DNA of 55,137 nt from a virus. The DNA lies in IMG/VR virus record IMGVR_UViG_3300046517_000324, positions 1 through 55,137 of that record. One strand, written 5' to 3'. Position numbers and translations under genes: made by a program. The notes beneath the pieces are model-generated. The model was not told the DNA's origin, searched no databases, and saw only the letters and a program-made list of their open reading frames with translations. Of this stretch, positions 3,479-28,206 are shown piece by piece. Each line of letters opens with the position of its first letter. The stretch's first letter is position 1.

Positions 3479-3974
3479 CGGCAATACAGCTCCGGTTTGT
3501 CCGGTCAGCCGCAACGAAGTGTTGCCGGGTATGCCTGGCATCATGTTGCCGTATGTGCCCAAGGCGGTCGATCTTCCTTCGGCTATAGCCGCAGCCAACC
3601 AAGCTGCCCAACTGCTGCAAACGCTCGCTGGACCGGTGGGCAACAACATAGGGGGTGGAGGCGGCAATCCGGCTGGCGGTTATTACGGCGTAAGACCGCA
3701 GACGGTGCGCTGGAGAGAGAAGGAGCGGCACACGGCGACGATAAGATATTACGCCAAGAATGCCACTACAGGCGACTACGATTTTGCCCAATGGCTAGAG
3801 GTTGATCGTATTGTTTACATCAAGTGGCATGACAAAGTTCAGAAGATAGATCTTATCGCTGAGTGGGTTTTTCGGCCAGAGCCAGGGAAAAAGCTAATGA
3901 AGATCGATGGGGGAGACGTCAACCCGACTGATCCGCGCACGTTCACTGGTGTACCAGGGATTGAAGTACAATGA
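3462..3974 (+). CDS. Tandem paralogue 2, small virion-associated protein
   Basis: 170 aa, overlapping its predecessor by 17 nt. It has the same plan as paralogue 1: TAPVCPVSRNEV, then VDLPSAIAAANQAAQLL, a Gly-rich hinge (GGGGG around residues 73-77), then a beta-rich region with IRYYAKNATTGDYDF and EVDRIVYIKW. The C-terminal tail is longer than in the other two copies. The conserved Cys in CPV occurs in all three proteins. Function unknown; a structural role is inferred from the operon. Confidence 0.72.
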   Translation: MAPRANGNTAPVCPVSRNEVLPGMPGIMLPYVPKAVDLPSAIAAANQAAQLLQTLAGPVGNNIGGGGGNPAGGYYGVRPQTVRWREKERHTATIRYYAKNATTGDYDFAQWLEVDRIVYIKWHDKVQKIDLIAEWVFRPEPGKKLMKIDGGDVNPTDPRTFTGVPGIEVQ

Positions 3975-4354
3975 CCGCACCTGTCTGTCCCGTCACTCGC
4001 AATCAAGTCGTGTGGATGCCTGGTGCCAAGCAGCCGGCGGTCCCACGAGCCATGGATCTGCCTTCGCTGCTGCAGGCGGTCAACTCACTCAAGCGGGTGT
4101 TGCAGGACACGATTGGTCCGGGGTTGGCTGGAGGATTTACGTCGCCAAACATGGGACCGCCGATCGTCGCGGATAGACCAAACTGGTTCGAAACTGATCG
4201 CGATACAAGAAACCTGCGTGTTTATCATAAAGATGCCGACGGCAAGCAAGACAAGAGTATGTATATCGATGTCGTGCGTATCGACAAGATCGTGTTTCAG
4301 TATCTGTATGACGATCCTTACGGCGAAACATTTGATTGGCAATATAAACGTTAG
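3971..4354 (+). CDS. Tandem paralogue 3, small virion-associated protein
   Basis: 127 aa, starting in an ATGA overlap with paralogue 2. It begins TAPVCPVTRNQVV, then MDLPSLLQAVN, a Gly/Pro linker, then a beta-rich C-terminus with LRVYHKDADGKQDKSMYIDVVRIDKIVF. It is the most divergent of the three but keeps the N-terminal CPV[ST]RN and DLPS blocks. Function unknown. Confidence 0.7.
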   Translation: MTAPVCPVTRNQVVWMPGAKQPAVPRAMDLPSLLQAVNSLKRVLQDTIGPGLAGGFTSPNMGPPIVADRPNWFETDRDTRNLRVYHKDADGKQDKSMYIDVVRIDKIVFQYLYDDPYGETFDWQYKR

Positions 4355-4357
4355 GAG

Positions 4358-5347
4358 ATGGTCTTGACGGATGCGCCGCCCTATCACGAGGATTTTTTCC
4401 AGCGCATCGTCAACGTGAACTGGAGTGTCGGTCCGGTTTTCATTTACGGCACGCAGCTCGGGAATGAATTGCATTACGTAAAACTAACCGGGAAGGACGG
4501 CAGTTCGAAACGGCATAGCATCGTCTTGCCGGAACCAGCAACCATCATTGATTATGGAGCTAAGGCTTTGTTTGGCGTTATTGGAAGCTCTTACGCCAAA
4601 ATAAAGGGTGTGGACGTGCTTCTGGTTTGCGGTACGGCGTCTAATTTTCACGAGATAACGGACGATGTTGGAAATACGACTGGAGCCATTGACCGGCACA
4701 CGGTGATTTATGCGTCCAATGATGGGCTCAACTGGGGCATAGTTCACGAAGAAGCAGCGATAGTGACAAGCTTTCATGATGAAAAATCCATTGAGTCTCT
4801 TGCTCTTGTCTGGAATCCGGACAAGTCGTCGTTTTATTACGACCAATTTTCCGGTGGCGTAGGTGGGAGCGGAGAAGAAGTGTTCAGTTCATCGGACGGT
4901 ACAGGCTGGGGGCGCAGCGGCGCTGGCTTTGTCGACCAATGTGTCAATAACGATTGTTTTGACTCACTCGGCCAGCATGTGCCGGATGGCGTCATGCAAT
5001 ATGATCTGAAAACGCAGACTACGGCAAAACCAGATTTACCACCGACGATATTTTATGACAGTGGTGCAGTCAGCTACGATCCTGGATCGGGTGATGTTAT
5101 CGTTACAAAACATCCTCCAGGAGGACAGATAACCGTGGGATTTTCATCGACCGTGTCTATGCCAGGCATCGGACGGGTCACTTGCGTAGCGGGATATAAC
5201 GGGATTTTCATGGCTGGCGGCTATACGAACGACAGCGGAGAAGGCCCCGGTGCTGTGGCATTGTCTGTAGACGGCGGCGCCACTTGGTCATTTTTTGCCG
5301 GTACGTCGACGGGCGTAACGACTATGATCGCTGCTCCGTTGCAGTAG
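4358..5347 (+). CDS. Asp-box (BNR-like) beta-propeller protein, possible tail fibre
   Basis: 329 aa. Three Asp-box-like motifs are visible: ASNDGLNW (119-126, degenerate), SSSDGTGW (177-184, degenerate) and SVDGGATW (303-310, perfect S-x-D-x-G-x-T-W). Such motifs mark blade turns in sialidase-type beta-propellers, which often bind glycans. Placed among tail genes, it may be a receptor-binding or tail-tip protein; no sialidase catalytic set is evident. The AGGAG at 4353-4357 abuts the ATG at 4358 but is ideally spaced for a TTG at 4364, so the true start may be TTG 4364. Confidence 0.68.
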   Translation: MVLTDAPPYHEDFFQRIVNVNWSVGPVFIYGTQLGNELHYVKLTGKDGSSKRHSIVLPEPATIIDYGAKALFGVIGSSYAKIKGVDVLLVCGTASNFHEITDDVGNTTGAIDRHTVIYASNDGLNWGIVHEEAAIVTSFHDEKSIESLALVWNPDKSSFYYDQFSGGVGGSGEEVFSSSDGTGWGRSGAGFVDQCVNNDCFDSLGQHVPDGVMQYDLKTQTTAKPDLPPTIFYDSGAVSYDPGSGDVIVTKHPPGGQITVGFSSTVSMPGIGRVTCVAGYNGIFMAGGYTNDSGEGPGAVALSVDGGATWSFFAGTSTGVTTMIAAPLQ

Positions 5348-5376
5348 GCGGGCGAAAATAGCTTGGAGGCACGGTT

Positions 5377-6306
5377 ATGGCTTCGACATCCAGCAGCTCA
5401 CAAGAGTCTAGCAGCCAGCAATCGGGCACGTCGTTCATTCCGAATTACTCGGAAACGCCGATCCTCGAGAGCATCGCCCAATATTCGGAGAACATGGCCC
5501 CGCAGGTCTACCAGTGGGGCATGCAGCAATTCGCCAACAACCAGGGCAACATCGACAGCATGATGCGCAATGCCTTGTCCTACGCCAGTCCGCAGCGCCA
5601 GGCGGTCGACATGGGGCAGGCCGAGGCAGGCGTGGCGCAAGGTGCTGAAGCAGCGCGGCAGTCGGCGATATCCGATCTGCAGAGCTACGGCATCGACCCA
5701 TCAGCCGGACGTTATGCCGGGTTAGATCGGGCTGATCGGGTGCAGTCGGCGGCGAGCGTAGCGGGCGCGGGCAATCAGCAGCGCATGGCCGACGTTGCCA
5801 CCGGCAACGCCATGCAGCAGCAGGCCACCTCGGCTGGGTTGCAAAACGTCCAAACGGGCTACGGTGCCGCCAATGCGGCGAACCAACTTCTAGGCACCGG
5901 TATGAGTTTGAAATACTCGCCGCTGGGGCAGCAGTCACAAGGTACGTCGCAGTCGTCGGGATCGAGCCATAGTTTTAGCGATGGCGGCAGCGGCGGCGGC
6001 AGTGGTGGTCCTGGCGGGCTTGCGATGTGGCAGCAGGGGCCGGTCGGTCCTGGATCGATGATGGCGGCAGGTGGTCCCGTCGGGTATCAGCCCGGCGGCT
6101 ACGTTCCCGCCGACGATAGCCCGTCGGGCGGTCAACAAGTTGATGACGTGAACGCCAATTTGAATGTCGGTGAGTTCGTGATTCCGCGCGACGTAGCGGC
6201 CTTTAAGGGCCAGGAACACTTCTACAAATTAATGGCTAAAGCTCGTAAGGACCGCGCTACGATGGGAAGCGGCGGTGCCCCGCAAACCGGTTATGGAGCA
6301 AACTGA
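5377..6306 (+). CDS. Internal virion/ejection-type protein, Ser/Gln/Gly-rich
   Basis: 309 aa; start ATG 5377 with GGAGG about 7 nt upstream. Ser/Gln-rich N-terminus, an Ala/Gln-rich helical middle (about 80-165), a Gly/Ser linker near 190-215, and a C-terminal NVGEFVIPRDVAAFKGQEHF segment of the kind seen in podovirus internal proteins. It contains VQTGYGAAN and ends in TGYGAN, motifs shared with the next two proteins. It corresponds in position to the ejection proteins of the right arm. A role in DNA ejection is inferred. Confidence 0.7.
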   Translation: MASTSSSSQESSSQQSGTSFIPNYSETPILESIAQYSENMAPQVYQWGMQQFANNQGNIDSMMRNALSYASPQRQAVDMGQAEAGVAQGAEAARQSAISDLQSYGIDPSAGRYAGLDRADRVQSAASVAGAGNQQRMADVATGNAMQQQATSAGLQNVQTGYGAANAANQLLGTGMSLKYSPLGQQSQGTSQSSGSSHSFSDGGSGGGSGGPGGLAMWQQGPVGPGSMMAAGGPVGYQPGGYVPADDSPSGGQQVDDVNANLNVGEFVIPRDVAAFKGQEHFYKLMAKARKDRATMGSGGAPQTGYGAN

Positions 6307-6866
6307 TGGCCCAGGCAGCAGCACAGCGCGTAGGCTATGCGAACGGCGGCGATGCAGGGCCGTCAGCGGCACCGCCGCAGCCTGGCAACGACATGAACCA
6401 TCGTGCCGCACTCCTGGCTGGCTTGCGCAAGCGTTACGACGCCATGATCGGCATGGCGCAGGGTGCTCACGCCCACGGCGACATCAAGACCGCCGCGCAC
6501 CTTGCCAGCAAGGCCCATGACATGGTGCCAGACGGCAAGAACCTGACGCACAACGTGACGCCCGACGGCCACATCCTGTCGGTCGTGCATGGGCGCGGCG
6601 GTGTGGAATCCACGCATCCGATGACCTCGCAGCAGTTCCATCACTACCTGGTGGGGCCAGCGACCAGCTTTGACCACGTCATCGACAACGGCGTGGGGCA
6701 TAATCTCCACATCGCTTCCGGCCGGCAGCAGCCGCGCGTGCAGGAGCATCCCAACGACCCGATCCACCGGGTTCGGCAGGTGCTGCAGCATACGCGGCAG
6801 ATGCACGGGTTGCATCGGATCGGCCAACAGCAGGCGCCACCTACCGGCTACGGCGCAGGAGGTTGA
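6306..6866 (+). CDS. Hypothetical His-rich virion-operon protein
   Basis: 186 aa; the start codon overlaps the previous stop (TGATG). His and Gln are unusually frequent in the C-terminal half. VGYANGG near the N-terminus and a TGYGAGG C-terminus repeat the motif of the neighbouring proteins. No family is recognised. The tight overlap places it in the ejection-protein cluster. Confidence 0.62.
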   Translation: MAQAAAQRVGYANGGDAGPSAAPPQPGNDMNHRAALLAGLRKRYDAMIGMAQGAHAHGDIKTAAHLASKAHDMVPDGKNLTHNVTPDGHILSVVHGRGGVESTHPMTSQQFHHYLVGPATSFDHVIDNGVGHNLHIASGRQQPRVQEHPNDPIHRVRQVLQHTRQMHGLHRIGQQQAPPTGYGAGG

Positions 6867-14501: not shown

Positions 14502-15731
14502 TTACGACGCATCCGTTCCCGCCTTGTTCCGGCTCGCGGCGCGGCCTTTCATGACCCTGGCGATCGCCTTGGTGTCGTCCCGCGAGTAGGCTTGGGTCTG
14601 GCTGACGTTGCTGTGGGTCGCGGTGCGCCTAACGTCATCCATGGCGGCAACGTCCGTCCCTTCCGTGATCGCGCCGGCCCGGCTGTCCATGTTCCAAACG
14701 TGGTTTGGGACTCCGGCCGCAGTCGCGACCTTGCGCCACTTCTCGCGGAAGTTCTTGGCTTGCCACGCCACCCCGGTTGCCTCGCAAATGATCAGCGGCC
14801 CCTTCTCGGGGAACTTGCCGGCCAGATCCAGTTCCGCCATGACCATCGGGGCCAGGCGCAGATCGACCTCGACCGGCTTCTGCCGTTTGCTGGTCATGTG
14901 GCGCAGGATCAAATTGGCGTCGATCTCTTCGCCCCGGAGACCCCGAAGCCACTTCCATTGACCGTCGTGGACATCCGACAGTTCCGGCTCGCCCATCGGG
15001 ACCCATTCCCCGATCACATCCTTTTGCCGCAGGGTGCATTCGAACTGGAACGCCTGGGCCAGCGCGATCGAGTGGCGGCCGAGCTCGTGGGCCTTGGCGA
15101 TGATGGCGAGTGCCTGGGTCGCCGTGATGTATTCCTTCCGGGGCTTGCCCATCTTGAAGCGCAGCAGTCCGGCATCCTCGCGCAACCGCCGGCATTCGGG
15201 ATCTCCGCGCTTTCCGACCAAGGTGGAGCCGAACGCGAAGAGTGTGCGGAGCTGCCCGACCTTGCCATGGGCTGACGGGGTCCGGCCGTCCGAGGTCCAC
15301 GCCCGCCACCAATCCTTGATCATGCGGGCGTCGATGTCAGAAAGCAGCGTGTCGCCGTAGTCCCTGGCGATCAGCTTGCACCGGCTGTCGTCGTTCATCC
15401 GGCTCGCGTAGCGAAGCTCCTGATACGAGGAATCCTTGTCGGTCTGGTAGAGCCGGATCAGGCTGCCCAGCGTGCCGTCGAAGGCGTCTGCGATCACCGG
15501 GATGCCGCCGCGGCCCCAGACCAGCATCTCGGCCTGGAGGCGGGTGCATTGGTCGGAGATCAGGGCGCAGTCCGTCTCGGAGGGCCATTCCCCGGCCCAG
15601 ACGCGGGCGCGCTGGGGCAGGAAGCCGCGCTTGATCAGGTCGGTGCGGGCGTGCCATTCCGCCACCCAGCCGGCTTTGCGGGGCGCCCACACCAAACCTG
15701 GAGAGTCGCTGACTTTCGGCCTATCGCTCAT
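14502..15731 (-). CDS. int: Tyrosine recombinase/integrase 1
   Basis: 409 aa from ATG 15731, preceded by GGAG; longer in-frame starts would intrude on the upstream gene. The catalytic domain is C-terminal: R235 (TLRQKD), R351 (MDSRAG), H373 (ATHSN) and nucleophile Y382 (QAYSR). The usual box-II His before the second Arg is replaced (NMDSR), as I recall being common in rhizobial phage integrases of the THSNVSxTQxYSR type. The N-terminal 60-170 region is probably the arm/core-binding domain. It is the last gene of the minus-strand early operon and abuts the non-coding 14175-14501 region. It catalyses site-specific prophage integration and excision. Confidence 0.9.
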   Translation of the reverse strand: MSDRPKVSDSPGLVWAPRKAGWVAEWHARTDLIKRGFLPQRARVWAGEWPSETDCALISDQCTRLQAEMLVWGRGGIPVIADAFDGTLGSLIRLYQTDKDSSYQELRYASRMNDDSRCKLIARDYGDTLLSDIDARMIKDWWRAWTSDGRTPSAHGKVGQLRTLFAFGSTLVGKRGDPECRRLREDAGLLRFKMGKPRKEYITATQALAIIAKAHELGRHSIALAQAFQFECTLRQKDVIGEWVPMGEPELSDVHDGQWKWLRGLRGEEIDANLILRHMTSKRQKPVEVDLRLAPMVMAELDLAGKFPEKGPLIICEATGVAWQAKNFREKWRKVATAAGVPNHVWNMDSRAGAITEGTDVAAMDDVRRTATHSNVSQTQAYSRDDTKAIARVMKGRAASRNKAGTDAS

Positions 15732-16050
15732 CGGAAGCTCCAGTATCGGCGAGAAGCCGTTCGACGGTGGCGAGGCGGGTCGCAAGCTCTGCATTCTCGG
15801 CCTGTACGCGATTGACGTCGGCATACAGCGCCTCGATCTCGCCAGCGGTGACATTGGTGCGGGCGAAATCGTTGAAGGCCGCCCTGAGCGCGCGACTGTC
15901 CTGCTGCAGCACCACGAGCGCACGGCTGATGAGCGGCAGCCCGTCTAATTGCGCCCGCATAGGAGCCAGTTGCGCCCGTAGCCCGTCTAACTGCGCCCGG
16001 ATAGGAGCCAACTCGGCCCGCAGGATGGTGCGAAAATCGTCATCGCTCAT
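15721..16050 (-). CDS. Hypothetical coiled-coil protein with internal duplication
   Basis: 109 aa. The N-terminal third contains a 14-residue repeat (APIRAQLDGLRAQL / APMRAQLDGL), followed by a long amphipathic helix near the C-terminus (VQAENAELATRLATVERLL). Overlaps integrase 1 by 11 nt and the HTH gene upstream by 11 nt. No family recognised; likely oligomeric. Confidence 0.68.
   Translation of the reverse strand: MSDDDFRTILRAELAPIRAQLDGLRAQLAPMRAQLDGLPLISRALVVLQQDSRALRAAFNDFARTNVTAGEIEALYADVNRVQAENAELATRLATVERLLADTGASDER
15939..16022 (-). repeat. Two-copy 42-bp tandem repeat inside a gene
   Basis: Two 42-bp units (15939-15980 and 15981-16022), both starting GCCCGTCTAA, with a few substitutions. 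In frame, each encodes 14 residues of the coiled-coil protein, so copy-number change would not break the frame. Confidence 0.8.
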
Positions 16051-17064: not shown

Positions 17065-17400
17065 TTACTCGTGAGCGGCGCGAACGCTGTCCAGCACGGC
17101 GGCGAACGCGGTGGACTCAGCGCCTTCAAAGACCTTACGCACGATGTCCCATGCTTCGTTGAAGCCGACTATCGAGTCGTCATAGTCCGGCTTCATCTCG
17201 CAAAGACAGTCATTAAGGCGAGTGTCGAGGCTGGCCTTAAGGCGAGCGGCGGCTTGGCACCAGCCTTCGACATATTCATGGGCCTGGAGCATCTTCTGCC
17301 GGCGCTCGCCATCGTTGGCGTAGCTCCAGCCGCGAAGCTCGCGGCCATCAAGAGAGACGGTGATTTCGTCCTTATCGTTATCGGTCACCTTCGGATGCAT
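17065..17400 (-). CDS. Hypothetical early phage protein
   Basis: 111 aa with an excellent AGGAGG five nt before its ATG. N-terminal beta segment (DEITVSLDGRELRGWSY) then a mostly helical region. No recognised family. The second copy of the 27-bp repeat lies upstream of its ribosome site. Confidence 0.65.
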   Translation of the reverse strand: MHPKVTDNDKDEITVSLDGRELRGWSYANDGERRQKMLQAHEYVEGWCQAAARLKASLDTRLNDCLCEMKPDYDDSIVGFNEAWDIVRKVFEGAESTAFAAVLDSVRAAHE

Positions 17401-17453: not shown

Positions 17454-18137
17454 TTACAGCACCATTTCGGATTGCTTTGCAGCGACAGCCCAAGTCGATC
17501 TGCACTGAACGGCATCCCAGCGGTCCGCCATCTTGCGCGGCGTGTTCTGATCTCGATTGTGATTGCGGGCGATGTCGGTACTATCGACGGACGCAAACGG
17601 CCACCGCTCACCAGAGCAAGCCATCCCGCGCAGCATGTGGACCCACGGCAAGCGGTGATGCTGCTTCGCCAGTCGATCCCACGCCTCGTCCATCCGGCGC
17701 TTCCACGCATCCGACATGATCTCGGCATAGATCGAGGTCGAGCCGATGCACACTTTGGGCCAGCCGGCGCAGAGCTTGGCTAGGCGGTCTATCGGCTCAT
17801 CCATGTGCCAGACCGGCGCCCCATGTTCCCCGAACGGCCATTGCAGGATCAGTTCGTCTTGCGCCTCCGCGCCGCCGTCGATCTCATCCGGGATCACGGC
17901 CCATGTCGTCGGGTAGTTCAGCCACTCATCCGACCAGTCGTAATAGGCCGGCCAATTCGTCGCGGTTCCCTTCTTCCATTTCGAGAAGGCCCCATTATCG
18001 AGCATTACGGACTGCCCAATCATGTGGCAGCGCGACACGTCAGCCGGATGCGCGAACGACACACAGAAGCACCGCCCCGCCAGCTCGTAGAGCGCGGTCA
18101 TCGGCGTGATCGGCGTGCCGTGGTAATGCATGGTCAT
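17454..18137 (-). CDS. Putative TGT/DpdA-like base-exchange enzyme
   Basis: 227 aa, ATGA overlap with the upstream HTH gene. Ordered motifs resemble the TIM-barrel tRNA-guanine transglycosylase superfamily: SVMLDNGAF (DNGAF 47-51), PDEIDG (83-88), PVWHMDEP (108-115), IGST (131-134), HMLRG (167-171) and DSTDIARN (185-192), the last comparable to the nucleophile-bearing stretch. Some relatives (DpdA) place 7-deazaguanines in DNA. It is shorter than canonical TGT (about 370 aa). No preQ0 synthesis genes are in the window, so any substrate would come from the host. The similarity is by motif order only and needs structure prediction. Confidence 0.6.
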   Translation of the reverse strand: MTMHYHGTPITPMTALYELAGRCFCVSFAHPADVSRCHMIGQSVMLDNGAFSKWKKGTATNWPAYYDWSDEWLNYPTTWAVIPDEIDGGAEAQDELILQWPFGEHGAPVWHMDEPIDRLAKLCAGWPKVCIGSTSIYAEIMSDAWKRRMDEAWDRLAKQHHRLPWVHMLRGMACSGERWPFASVDSTDIARNHNRDQNTPRKMADRWDAVQCRSTWAVAAKQSEMVL

Positions 18138-18328
18138 CGCCCGCAGGCCCCTTCGGACATCCTGCGGCGGCGCTCGACCGGCCAGCGCATCGGAAGGTTG
18201 AGGCGCGAGACGAGGGTGGACGGGTATGTGATCGCAACACCATGTTTGGCGGCGATCAGCGATACTTTCATTCCGGCCTCATATTCGGCCAGAATCGCCG
18301 CTTTCGTTTCTTCGCTCAATCGCTTCAT
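18134..18328 (-). CDS. Small homeodomain-like HTH protein
   Basis: 64 aa. MKRLSEETKAAILAEYEAG followed by SLIAAKHGVAITYPSTLVSRL has the layout of a transposase-type/Sigma-70-like HTH. Basic C-terminus. Coupled by ATGA to the TGT-like gene. Possible regulator; targets unknown. Confidence 0.65.
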   Translation of the reverse strand: MKRLSEETKAAILAEYEAGMKVSLIAAKHGVAITYPSTLVSRLNLPMRWPVERRRRMSEGACGR

Positions 18329-18357
18329 TTCTGGTTCCCACTATTCCCGTCTGCGCC

Positions 18358-18651
18358 CTAGATCGAACGCATGGTCAGTTCCATTTCTTCCAAGCCTTCG
18401 ACAAAGGCGATCGGGCACCAATCCTCCAAGACATGCATCCCGTAGCTGTTCACCCCGATTGGCTTGCCGTCCTTCGTGATGACCAGGAAAAGCGCGGCCT
18501 CCCCTTGGTAGGGAGGTCGCCCCTCTGTGATCGCGATCAGAACTTGCAGATGACCGTCGCGCAGACCGCGCCCGCCACGGATATGATAGACGTTGCCAAT
18601 ACGGGTCGGCGTCAGAGGCGAAAACTCGGTCGCCTGGATCGCGATTTTCAC
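18358..18651 (-). CDS. Hypothetical early phage protein
   Basis: 97 aa from GTG 18651, which overlaps the upstream stop as GTGA with GGAG eight nt before; an ATG at 18675 would extend it by eight residues. Beta-rich, with HIRGGRGLRDGHLQVL and LVITKDGKPIGVNSYGMHVLEDWCP. No recognised family. Lies directly downstream of the Acb2-like gene. Confidence 0.62.
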   Translation of the reverse strand: MKIAIQATEFSPLTPTRIGNVYHIRGGRGLRDGHLQVLIAITEGRPPYQGEAALFLVITKDGKPIGVNSYGMHVLEDWCPIAFVEGLEEMELTMRSI

Positions 18652-18896
18652 GCTGTCAACTCCTTCACGATCCACATGACGGATTGTTCGAGCGAGGTGA
18701 CGGCGAGCGCGTTGTAGCGACCCGGCTTCACCTTCGCGAACAGGCTCTCCAATTCCGCCGCCTTGTCCTTGAGGGCGTCGTGGAGCGCCTTTTCCTCATC
18801 CGTGAGCGCCCGGTAGCGGGGTCGGAACCGGCTTACCGGCGCGTTCACGTCGCCCGACTGGCGTCCGTCTGTCTTGCCTTCGTACACATTCGTCAT
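18648..18896 (-). CDS. Acb2/Tad1 hairpin-domain protein (putative anti-CBASS)
   Basis: 82 aa. After a variable N-terminus, RYRALTDEEKALHDALKDKAAELESL, then a short turn and YNALAVTSLEQSVMWIVKELT, match the two-helix Acb2-type hairpin (YRxLTxEE ... AVMWxVKxLT). Acb2 proteins are phage sponges that bind cyclic oligonucleotides and block CBASS immunity. AAGGA lies seven nt before the ATG. Function here is inferred from family resemblance; the loop is shorter than in characterised members. Confidence 0.68.
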   Translation of the reverse strand: MTNVYEGKTDGRQSGDVNAPVSRFRPRYRALTDEEKALHDALKDKAAELESLFAKVKPGRYNALAVTSLEQSVMWIVKELTA

Positions 18897-18954
18897 GTCG
18901 TATCCTTGGGTTGGTAGTCAAAATCCGGTTCGCTCACCTGCTGACACCGCCCCG

Positions 18955-20372: not shown

Positions 20373-20890
20373 CCAACACCAATGACTTTCCGCCAAGTCG
20401 GAACCGCCCGGTGGACACTGGCGGTCGGAACCTTGCGGCCAAAGGTCCGATTCTTCGTCTTCATATGAAAGGGCGTGAATCCTGACTCGCGTGGCCAGAA
20501 CCACTGCTGCAATTTCGGGAAGTCGATCAACCAACAGTCGAGGCCGCCGTCATCTTGGTGGAAGCAATACAGCAGATAGTCGGCCTCGCCGTAGAACATC
20601 CAGCCGGGAGACTCTAAGCCCGGCAGCGTGCAGCTTTTGGTCTCAAGACAAAAACATGCGTACTTGTAACCGGGCCAGCGAACTATCTTTTCCTCGATGC
20701 AAAGCGCCGATCCGTCCCTGGCTTGCAGCACGGTGTCGACCGCAAAGCGTTTCTGTAGAATACTGGCGAGGCGTCCCTTGTCGACGAACACATAACGCCC
20801 TTCCTTGGCGTATCTGCCGTAGAATTGCGGCGCCAACACCTCATCGCGAACCTGCCTCTGCCAAGCATCGTCGGAATGAAAGTTGTTCAT
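20369..20890 (-). CDS. Phage protein with possible PD-(D/E)XK nuclease core
   Basis: 173 aa. Residues D52 (AVDTVLQ), then E66-x-K68 (IEEKIV), followed by [12 protein letters not shown], fit a D-x(n)-E-x-K nuclease core. [14 protein letters not shown] is a second conserved-looking block. The gene is coupled by ATGA to the MT-A70 methyltransferase, so the two may act together. The nuclease assignment is by motif only. Confidence 0.6.
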
Positions 20891-21843
20891 TCGGCAGCTT
20901 CCCGCTCGACGAACAGGTTGAGGAATTCGGGACGCTCGGTGCGTTGGAAAATTTCCCCATATGGCTCATAGGAGGCCGCGCGCACGATCTCGTAAAACTT
21001 TTCTGGCTTCTCCGAATGTTCGCCCAGCGGCGCCTCGAAATGGGTCGAGATGCTGTCGGAACGGGTGCGCAGCTCGCCGCGCACGCCGAAAAGCACATGC
21101 TCGGTACTGTTGCGGAAATAGGAACCGAGCCCGAATTTCGGTTTGACCCACGTCAGCACGGTCTTATGGGAAAAACCCCATCGCGCCATCAGCTCGGCCG
21201 CGCGGGTGATGAAGTTGTTGGTCGTCCAGAGATAGAGGTGACAATTGTCCTCGGCCCATGCGCCCACATCGAGGGCGAGCAACTGTTCGTGGGTCATTGT
21301 CGCGTAGCCGGGCTTGGCGCGGCCAGCTAGCGACAGCCACTCGTAGTCCCAAGGTGGATCGATGACGAGAGTGCGGTAGCGTCCCGGTCGCGGCGCAAGA
21401 GCGCGAACCCGAGCCTCATCCTCGGCGCGCATCTCAATGCGCTCGATCTTCGCCGTGCCGTCGAGCGCCGACCGCTGCTTGCGCTTGGCGATTGCGATCT
21501 TCCGCTCGCGCTCGTCCTCGGAAAGCGCGGCCAAGCGCTGCCACCGGCTTGATTGGCTCTTGGTGATGTCGAGGTCGGCGAGTTTTGAAGTAGCGGGCTG
21601 CGACTTCATGTTCTTGCGAACGGCACGCGCCCCGGTGTCCGCCATCTCCGCCAGGAGTTCGCCCGCGCGTATCTCGGCCCGTAGTCGGATGTCCGTGGCG
21701 CGATCGATCAGCTCGGGGTCTTTGGCCTGCCGGGCGTAGACCTGCATCGCAACGGCTTTGTCGCGGATGTCCTTGACCTCGTCCACGCGGCATGCCGCGG
21801 CCAAGGCCTTGCGGACTGCGTCGTATCGGGTGAGCTCCTTCAT
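20887..21843 (-). CDS. MT-A70 family adenine N6-methyltransferase
   Basis: 318 aa. N-terminal helical region (about 1-140), then the catalytic domain with DPPW at 162-165, MTHEQLLAL, and [19 protein letters not shown] and [14 protein letters not shown] are typical of the family. It methylates adenine in DNA, probably protecting phage DNA from restriction or influencing regulation. First gene after a strong hairpin downstream of the XRE gene. The downstream partner at 20369 may be a nuclease. Confidence 0.88.
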
Positions 21844-26147: not shown

Positions 26148-26545
26148 GCATGATCCAGCTTCGCCCATCAGAACTCGCCCGCGATTACGGCTTCACGGCG
26201 CGGCATTGGACACGGCTTGCCACCGCGGGCCGCATCCCCGGCGCCCATCAGCCCAGTGGACGCGGCGGCGGATGGCTTTTCGACCGCCAAGCATTCGTGG
26301 CATGGTGGCGATCAACGCAACGCGAGGTATCGGCATGGCCGGGCTATACCGAAGGGGCGGCGTCTACTGGGGTCGTGCCCAGCGTCAAGGCCGAGAGTAC
26401 CGCCGAAGCCTCAAAACAGCGGATCGAGCGATTGCTGGTCGACGTCTTAGGGCATGGCTCGACGAGCTCGACGCGGTCGCGTGGGGCGACAAGCCGCGGC
26501 GCACATTCGAGGAGGCGGCCGAGCGATTTATCCGGGAGCACCTAA
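26144..26545 (+). CDS. Excisionase-like HTH protein overlapping integrase 2
   Basis: About 133 aa from GTG 26144 (GTGA overlap); ATG 26150 is an alternative. IQLRPSELARDYGFTARHWTRL and GAHQPSGRGGGWLFDRQAFVAWW form a MerR/Xis-type winged helix in the first 65 residues. EASKQRIERLLVDVLG is a plausible second helix, but beyond about residue 105 the sequence is low-complexity Ser/Arg. It overlaps integrase 2 by 211 nt in another frame. Likely the directionality factor for integrase 2. Confidence 0.6.
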   Translation: MSMIQLRPSELARDYGFTARHWTRLATAGRIPGAHQPSGRGGGWLFDRQAFVAWWRSTQREVSAWPGYTEGAASTGVVPSVKAESTAEASKQRIERLLVDVLGHGSTSSTRSRGATSRGAHSRRRPSDLSGST

Positions 26546-27384
26546 CGACGCTCAAGCCGGGCGGCGCGAAGCGCTACGGCGTCAGCTTGAAGAACCTGGC
26601 GCCACATTTCGCTGGCCTCACCCTCGACCGGATCACCCGCTCCACCCTTTCAGATTTCGAAACCAAACGGCGCAGCGATGGAGTCACAGCCGGGACGATC
26701 CGGCGCGATTTCGCCTGTCTTTCCTCGATGCTTACATCGGCTACCGATTGGGAGTGGATCGACGACGGCGCAAACCCCGTTCCATCCTATCTCCGGCGTC
26801 GGTCGAAGCGCGGGCTCAAGGAAGCCCCGCCCCGCACCAGGTATCTGACCGAGCGGGAGGAAGTCGCCCTGCTAGCCCAGGCTAGCCCCGCTGTGCGTGA
26901 TGCCATTATCCTGGCAATAGACACCGGACTGCGGTTGAGCGAGCTGTTCGAGCTCCAGTGGCCGCAAATCGACTTCGCGCGGGGTATCATCGTCACCACC
27001 ACAAGGACCAAGAGCGGTCGAGCTCGGCATGTCCCGCTGACACCCCGCTCCCGCACAATCCTGACTTTGATTCCTCGCCGCCTGGACACGCCATATATTT
27101 TGGTGAACCCCGACACCGGAACCAGATACGTCCACATGAGCAAGGGGCTAGAGGCCGCGAGGCGACGAAGTGGTACCGCCGCTATCCGTTGGCATGATTT
27201 GCGCCGGACGGCGGGGTGTCGATGGTTGCAGCGTGACGGGAAGACCATGCATGAGGTGTCTATTCTGCTCGGGCACTCGTCTGTTTCCGTGACTGAAAAG
27301 CACTACGCCTTCGTCAACGAGGAGGACCTCGCCGAGTCCTTGTCAGGCACAAAACCCGGCACAGACCGTAAGGTGGCAGGATGA
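26335..27384 (+). CDS. int: Tyrosine recombinase/integrase 2
   Basis: 349 aa from ATG 26335; earlier in-frame starts are possible (26302) but lengthen the N-terminus with unlikely sequence. N-terminal LYRRGGVYWGRAQRQGREYR is a short arm-binding-like strand region, then a core-binding domain, then the catalytic set R200 (TGLRLSE), K226 (TKSGRAR), H287-x-x-R290 (WHDLRRTAG), H314 (LLGHSS) and Y324 (KHYAF). All active-site residues are present. Its 3' end lies 200 bp from a tRNA-Gln-like attachment core. Confidence 0.93.
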   Translation: MAGLYRRGGVYWGRAQRQGREYRRSLKTADRAIAGRRLRAWLDELDAVAWGDKPRRTFEEAAERFIREHLTTLKPGGAKRYGVSLKNLAPHFAGLTLDRITRSTLSDFETKRRSDGVTAGTIRRDFACLSSMLTSATDWEWIDDGANPVPSYLRRRSKRGLKEAPPRTRYLTEREEVALLAQASPAVRDAIILAIDTGLRLSELFELQWPQIDFARGIIVTTTRTKSGRARHVPLTPRSRTILTLIPRRLDTPYILVNPDTGTRYVHMSKGLEAARRRSGTAAIRWHDLRRTAGCRWLQRDGKTMHEVSILLGHSSVSVTEKHYAFVNEEDLAESLSGTKPGTDRKVAG

Positions 27385-27735: not shown

Positions 27736-28206
27736 ATGCCTGCACATTGCGACAATCTGTGGCCGCAGGAGCGCATCGCCAAGCTGCGTGTCCTGGTGGC
27801 GCAGGGATATAGCGCCCGCCAGATCGGCGCCGCGCTCGGCGTCACTCGCAGCGCCGCCCTCGGCAAGATCCACCGCATGGGACTCCAGCTGCTGACGGTC
27901 AGGAAGCCGGCCGCCATCAAGAAACCGCGCAAGAGGATCAAGATGATACTTCCAAGGCCCCTGCCCTCGCCCGTGGTGCCCGAGGTCGCCCCTGCCAACG
28001 GGCCGATCGGCATCATGGAGCTCACCGCCTTTACCTGCCGGTGGCCATTCGGCGAGCGGGCGCCGTTCCGCTTCTGCGGCACCACCAAGCCGGCCACCGT
28101 GCCGTATTGCCGGGAGCACACCGCGATCGCGGCCGGGCATTCGTCCGCGCGCGGCAATTCCTGGGATGGTCGGAGGTCACCGGATGGGACTGCTAAGAGC
28201 CTATGA
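27736..28206 (+). CDS. gcrA: GcrA-type cell-cycle regulator
   Basis: 156 aa from ATG 27736. LWPQERIAKLRVLVAQGYSA followed by RQIGAALGVTRSAALGKIHRMGL is the GcrA N-terminal DNA-binding HTH, followed by a basic linker (KKPRKRIK). The C-terminus has CRWPFGERAPFRFCG and PYCREH, the cysteine motif of the family. In alphaproteobacteria GcrA activates sigma-70 promoters containing CcrM-methylated GANTC. A phage copy could redirect host cell-cycle transcription. Lies between the att core and the lysis cassette. Confidence 0.88.
   Translation: MPAHCDNLWPQERIAKLRVLVAQGYSARQIGAALGVTRSAALGKIHRMGLQLLTVRKPAAIKKPRKRIKMILPRPLPSPVVPEVAPANGPIGIMELTAFTCRWPFGERAPFRFCGTTKPATVPYCREHTAIAAGHSSARGNSWDGRRSPDGTAKSL

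Follow-up and report, generated by a model that had tools for sequence, protein, structure and literature searches.

The dpdA-like gene and its surroundings

The window, that is, the whole stretch of DNA analysed, is one IMG/VR virus record of 55,137 nt. A compact dpdA/TGT-like ORF encoding 227 aa is located on its minus strand at 17454-18137. The first-pass annotation had placed a protein of this length here without giving a strand, and all of the motifs that it quoted are present; a plus-strand reading of the interval was ruled out by a stop. The interval was called coding by a codon-based gene call. Because the protein matches PHROG 887, named 'queuine tRNA-ribosyltransferase', over residues 1-193 (E=1.9e-47), has homologues in 102 phage records (tblastn) and recurs in further IMG/VR copies, the ORF is, judged by its sequence, a genuine gene and not a chance reading frame. 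The following features are relevant to its context.

17454..18137, minus strand: compact DpdA/TGT-like gene, 227 aa (PHROG 887, AlphaFold2 model, alignment)
17065..17400, minus strand: ORF of 111 aa directly downstream of dpdA, without family match
18134..18328, minus strand: small HTH (transposase-like helix-turn-helix) ORF of 64 aa, its end sharing 4 nt with the start of dpdA
18358..18651, minus strand: small ORF of 97 aa, without family match
18138..18926, minus strand: segment upstream of dpdA, non-homologous to the related locus L022 (window-L022 comparison)
20887..21843, minus strand: MT-A70 adenine DNA methyltransferase (PF05063, E=4.7e-21)
26272..27384, plus strand: tyrosine integrase, assigned by its sequence within a batch of 30 proteins in which a scan detected Phage_integrase
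27736..28206, plus strand: GcrA cell-cycle regulator (PF07750, E=3.9e-24)

By inspection, the gene content, with its tyrosine integrase, points to a tailed phage of temperate lifestyle; a hint of an alphaproteobacterial host comes from GcrA. The MT-A70 methyltransferase gene shares its strand and early-gene region with dpdA and possibly represents a second DNA modification. An N6-adenine methyltransferase is likewise found near dpdA in Pantoea phage MED16. Further downstream of dpdA, a 440-aa ORF without family match (14502-15824, minus strand) looks tyrosine-recombinase-like by eye and recurs downstream of dpdA in loci L006 and L024.

Consistent with the earlier statement that no preQ0 genes are present, Pfam searches of the window for QueC, QueD/PTPS, FolE, Vut_1 and TGT, a QueE protein search, and family-specific profiles for VUT, QueD-like, QueE and QueF-L-like proteins all returned nothing, the contig being possibly incomplete. 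The preQ0/G+ cluster of the phage 9g type (folE, queD, queE and queC beside dpdA) is absent from the window. A third recurrent partner was sought in the window flanks, but few or none of the other loci share the small ORFs present there.

The proposal of an undescribed size class, on the other hand, does not survive comparison with the 102 phage records and with the relatives that a family profile scan detected in at least 567 IMG/VR stretches. Among the matches listed, full-length IMG/VR copies are 60-91% identical to the window protein, the closest ones 80-91%. Lengths range from 212 to 266 aa across 61 aligned members, with a median of 227, and enzymes of 225-260 aa are ordinary for phage singleton DpdA (MED16 gp38, 261 aa; BTP1 gp23, ~251 aa; Pam5 gp30, 230 aa).

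Family, fold and predicted active site

Neither Pfam nor NCBIfam matches the window protein, and PF01702 (TGT) is matched by none of 14 phage records, the window included. Searches of the PDB gave only chance matches with phmmer and only unrelated sequences with the family profile. The same profile matched the DpdA of Enterobacteria phage 9g (E=4e-8), and hhalign aligned the family with 9g DpdA (E=4.7e-5) and with MED16 DpdA (E=1e-43), in support of the TGT/DpdA-like kinship that the motifs had first suggested. The hhalign comparison with E. coli TGT yielded no usable alignment, and catalytic residues were therefore mapped through 9g DpdA. A search covering half of the Salmonella phage 7-11 genome did not reveal its DpdA.

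An AlphaFold2 model built on the 61-sequence alignment (pLDDT 93.3, pTM 0.89) shows eight strands alternating with helices, so that the TIM barrel proposed as a check on the assignment is confidently predicted. A tRNA-guanine transglycosylase ranks first in a Foldseek search of the PDB, although this match is weak (E=4.4e-3, TM 0.5) and other TIM barrels are intermixed. Among the BFVD viral models there are 24 matches with E<=0.001, many of them named phage queuine tRNA-ribosyltransferases and the others mostly uncharacterised phage proteins.

Seven residues (D47, D84, H111, G132, H167, R170 and D185) are invariant in the 61 aligned sequences, and the family motifs pair with those of 9g DpdA as LDNGAF/LDSGAF, HMDEP/HAGEP, VHMLRG/VHGFG and VDST/CDSS. 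D47 and D185 each align with an Asp of 9g DpdA. H167 aligns with His196 in VHGFG (numbered by counting from the alignment), a residue reported to be missing in DpdA2 (PMC6884629). The predicted active site comprises D47, D84, H167 and D185; by analogy with TGT, D185 is the likely nucleophile and D47 the likely acid/base.

These data bear on the possibility of a small TGT whose substrate is tRNA of the host or the phage and which tunes decoding in the infected cell, leaving DNA untouched. The database name and the best PDB fold match both point in that direction. However, the CxCxxC zinc motif, which E. coli TGT carries at 302, is found in 0 of 61 members, no Pfam TGT match or extra RNA-binding domain is present, and the profile kin are phage DpdA proteins and not E. 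coli TGT. We consider a tRNA substrate improbable. As the profile reaches 9g DpdA, the His196 equivalent is kept and the zinc motif is absent, the sequence identifies the window protein as DpdA-like rather than as a tRNA TGT.

Bacterial TGT (PF01702) shares the TIM-barrel fold and a DxGxF-type motif with the window protein, but has a zinc site and a Pfam match and is longer (375 versus 227 aa). The 9g enzyme, a characterised DNA preQ0 transglycosylase, has the aligned catalytic motifs, but is larger (317 aa), accompanied by its preQ0/G+ cluster and only remotely similar. MED16 gp38 belongs to the same family, with the same motifs, a similar size and no preQ0 synthesis genes; its identity is 37-40%, the window subfamily being more compact. 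Within that subfamily, named members infect alphaproteobacteria and cyanobacteria, and most copies stem from contigs of environmental origin. Pseudanabaena phage Pam5 gp30 ('transglycosylase') and Rhizobium phage RHph_N3_2 EVB98_054 are of window-like size and 67-68% identical over their full length. Unlike the window, both phages carry a VUT/DUF165 (YhhQ) gene directly or one gene downstream.

Alternative supply genes beside dpdA in related phages

A queuosine-precursor transporter, QueD and QueE are known suppliers of the 7-deazaguanine substrate. Partner genes were counted in 49 whole records and, separately, in 82 distinct dpdA loci, which represent the best matches and include fragments. 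Among the whole records, Vut_1 (YhhQ, queuosine precursor transporter) occurs in 22 and a PTPS/QueD-like protein in 15 (7 of the 15 under the Pfam cut-off), with no overlap between the two; QueE is found in 5 of the 49, QueC and FolE in none. The 82 loci comprise 33 with VUT, 22 with a QueD-like gene and none with both, an exclusivity with a hypergeometric P of ~1e-6 when kinship between loci is ignored. QueE accompanies a QueD-like gene in each of the 7 loci where it occurs, while about 18 loci keep dpdA without any recognised partner family. All 33 VUT or PTPS matches in IMG/VR records lie within 653 nt of dpdA and on the same strand, and at least 7 changes between the VUT and QueD states are needed on the tree. 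The description 'without pathway partners' given by the first-pass annotation thus holds for the window contig and fails for the family.

The transporter link reaches gammaproteobacterial phages: PEAT2 and Opt-719 each have a VUT gene immediately ahead of their DpdA homologue. In NCBIfam, QueE of L023 and QueD of L030 pass the cut-offs; the transporter of L022 and the QueD-like protein of L023 score only under them. Most short QueD-like proteins retain the metal-binding His and the Asp-His pair; because the catalytic-Cys loop is missing, they may not function as QueD. Loop-less short versions are found directly upstream of dpdA at L052:5672-5998, L056:2196-2489, L088:5699-6001 and L099:7687-8001.

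The PHROG 887 compact enzymes correspond to the 'singleton DpdA' phages (group 3) of Hutinet 2019, who described 76 phages that have DpdA but lack synthesis genes, suggested supply by the host, and noted YhhQ in some phages without correlation with any group (PMC6884629). What is new relative to that survey is that compact DpdA stands in physical linkage with either a transporter gene or a QueD-like one, that these two never occur together and that they have swapped repeatedly. Taken alone, the window gene is one more singleton DpdA; the partner pattern of the family matters more, and our interest centres on the alternative supply cassettes of the relatives. The pattern predicts that phages meet one supply problem by two alternative routes, and closely related phages with different cassettes offer a test of which base enters DNA.

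The window clade has four members (support 98) and includes all three partner states: VUT in L001/L022 (91%), QueE-QueD in L005/L023 (80%), and no recognised partner in the window and L004. The window is collinear with its 91%-identical relative L022 on both sides of dpdA (window 20019-18926 and 16878-16565). The intervening window segment 18926-18137 holds unrelated small ORFs and is unrelated to the L022 segment, in which a VUT/YhhQ transporter (L022 4913-6001) occupies the place matching window 18138..18926. The two sequences differ by replacement of a cassette just ahead of dpdA, in one direction or the other. On the other side, the 111-aa ORF at 17065..17400 is part of a segment (17427-16878) missing from L022.

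Replacement of the cassette place by unrelated ORFs, together with a contig devoid of partners of any known type, would also fit an orphan remnant, a gene of little present benefit in a lineage deprived of its supply cassette. Yet the ORF is unbroken, retains every family-invariant residue, is 86-91% identical to relatives and lies on a short branch (0.045 in the tree). Moreover, dpdA is retained in the other partnerless loci, and both relative-bearing bacterial genomes examined encode their own QueC and QueD. An orphan remnant is therefore very unlikely in our view, and the window gene is an ordinary, intact member of the singleton DpdA kind.

A further neighbour, a protein of 80 aa, stands beside dpdA in 11 of the 82 loci (among others L061:896-1135, L032:1915-2157, L020:5756-6001 and L100:8675-8911): in 4 loci with VUT, in 7 without VUT or QueD and in none with a QueD-like gene. 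It has no match in Pfam. The AlphaFold2 model, for which one row of the family alignment was omitted, consists of two strands, two helices and two strands (pLDDT 96), and its 12 best PDB fold matches are all archaeosine synthase QueF-Like (5jyx/5k0p; TM <=0.88). QueF-Like is also the best PDB sequence match of the 80-aa profile, which is not significant alone (E=0.32). The invariant Cys13 aligns with QueF-L Cys21, the thioimide Cys (PMC5485725); only part of the family retains the Asp. As a lead from structure modelling, the 80-aa protein could possibly be a minimal phage QueF-L. An 86-aa gene between dpdA and VUT in Pam5 was considered as a member of the same family and rejected by alignment.

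Proposed function of the compact enzyme

With a probability of roughly 0.7, the window gene encodes a host-dependent compact DpdA that inserts a host-made 7-deazaguanine into phage DNA; we infer DNA as the substrate, the identity of the inserted base, supply by the host and a possible protection against restriction. At selected guanines of the phage DNA the enzyme would cleave the N-glycosidic bond, forming a covalent Asp intermediate with D185 as likely nucleophile and D47 as likely acid/base. A 7-deazaguanine, either preQ0 or a pathway base such as ADG or CDG, would then be inserted.

The role of a 7-deazaguanine is proposed because the dpdA genes of relatives are linked to transporter, QueD and QueE genes. 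The base would be supplied by the queuosine pathway of the host, since the contig is without synthesis or uptake genes and the two relative-bearing bacterial genomes encode QueC and QueD; the host dependence put forward earlier is thereby supported. Exchange in DNA is favoured by MED16, which has dpdA as its only such gene and whose virion DNA carries dADG at ~0.13% of G (PMC8306585). On the other hand, this dADG is scarce and tied to the gene by no deletion, and restriction enzymes tried on MED16 met no noticeable hindrance from it (PMC8306585). Orion, a singleton-DpdA phage whose host is without preQ0 genes, has no modification (PMC8306585, citing PMC6884629). The unmodified Orion DNA, the weak PDB fold match and the failed alignment with E. 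coli TGT likewise speak against the compact-DpdA reading as a whole.

The inserted base could also be one other than preQ0, such as CDG. Several relatives have genes for QueD and QueE, in no case joined by one for QueC, and QueC and FolE are missing from all 49 whole records, a gene content that would fit CDG. In addition, Cui et al. 2023 reportedly detected dCDG in the DNA of phages. However, the Rhizobiales host genome of L019, a locus of the QueE/QueD type, has its own QueC, by which preQ0 would still be possible, and in relatives of the transporter type the imported bases would be of the preQ0/preQ1 kind. A base other than preQ0 thus seems rather unlikely.

Two loci of this type deserve mention. 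L023 (6678-7292 and 7286-7591) has a dpdA-queE-queD operon without queC or folE, a pathway that would end at CDG unless the QueC of the host acts. In L019, a Rhizobiales MAG, dpdA (6001-6673) is split over two frames by a frameshift or a sequencing error and adjoins QueE and canonical QueD.

Beyond insertion of a host-made 7-deazaguanine by the window enzyme, compact DpdA may form the fixed core of an exchangeable module, combined with one of two mutually exclusive supply cassettes and sometimes with a one-domain QueF-Like enzyme, by which preQ0, whether inserted or salvaged, would be turned into a base resembling archaeosine; as a lineage with no cassette of a recognised type, the window would depend on its host. 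We regard the chances of this wider proposal as evenly balanced.

Other arrangements were observed around dpdA in the family. A nucleoside 2-deoxyribosyltransferase-like gene (PF05014, E=3.8e-11) adjoins dpdA at L024:6678-7061, and such a neighbour is also present in L083, L085-L087 and L096. L007 carries two dpdA-like genes nearly in tandem (3553-4200 and 5001-5678), the upstream copy being 52% and the downstream copy 69% identical to the window protein, and the same arrangement is found in L025.
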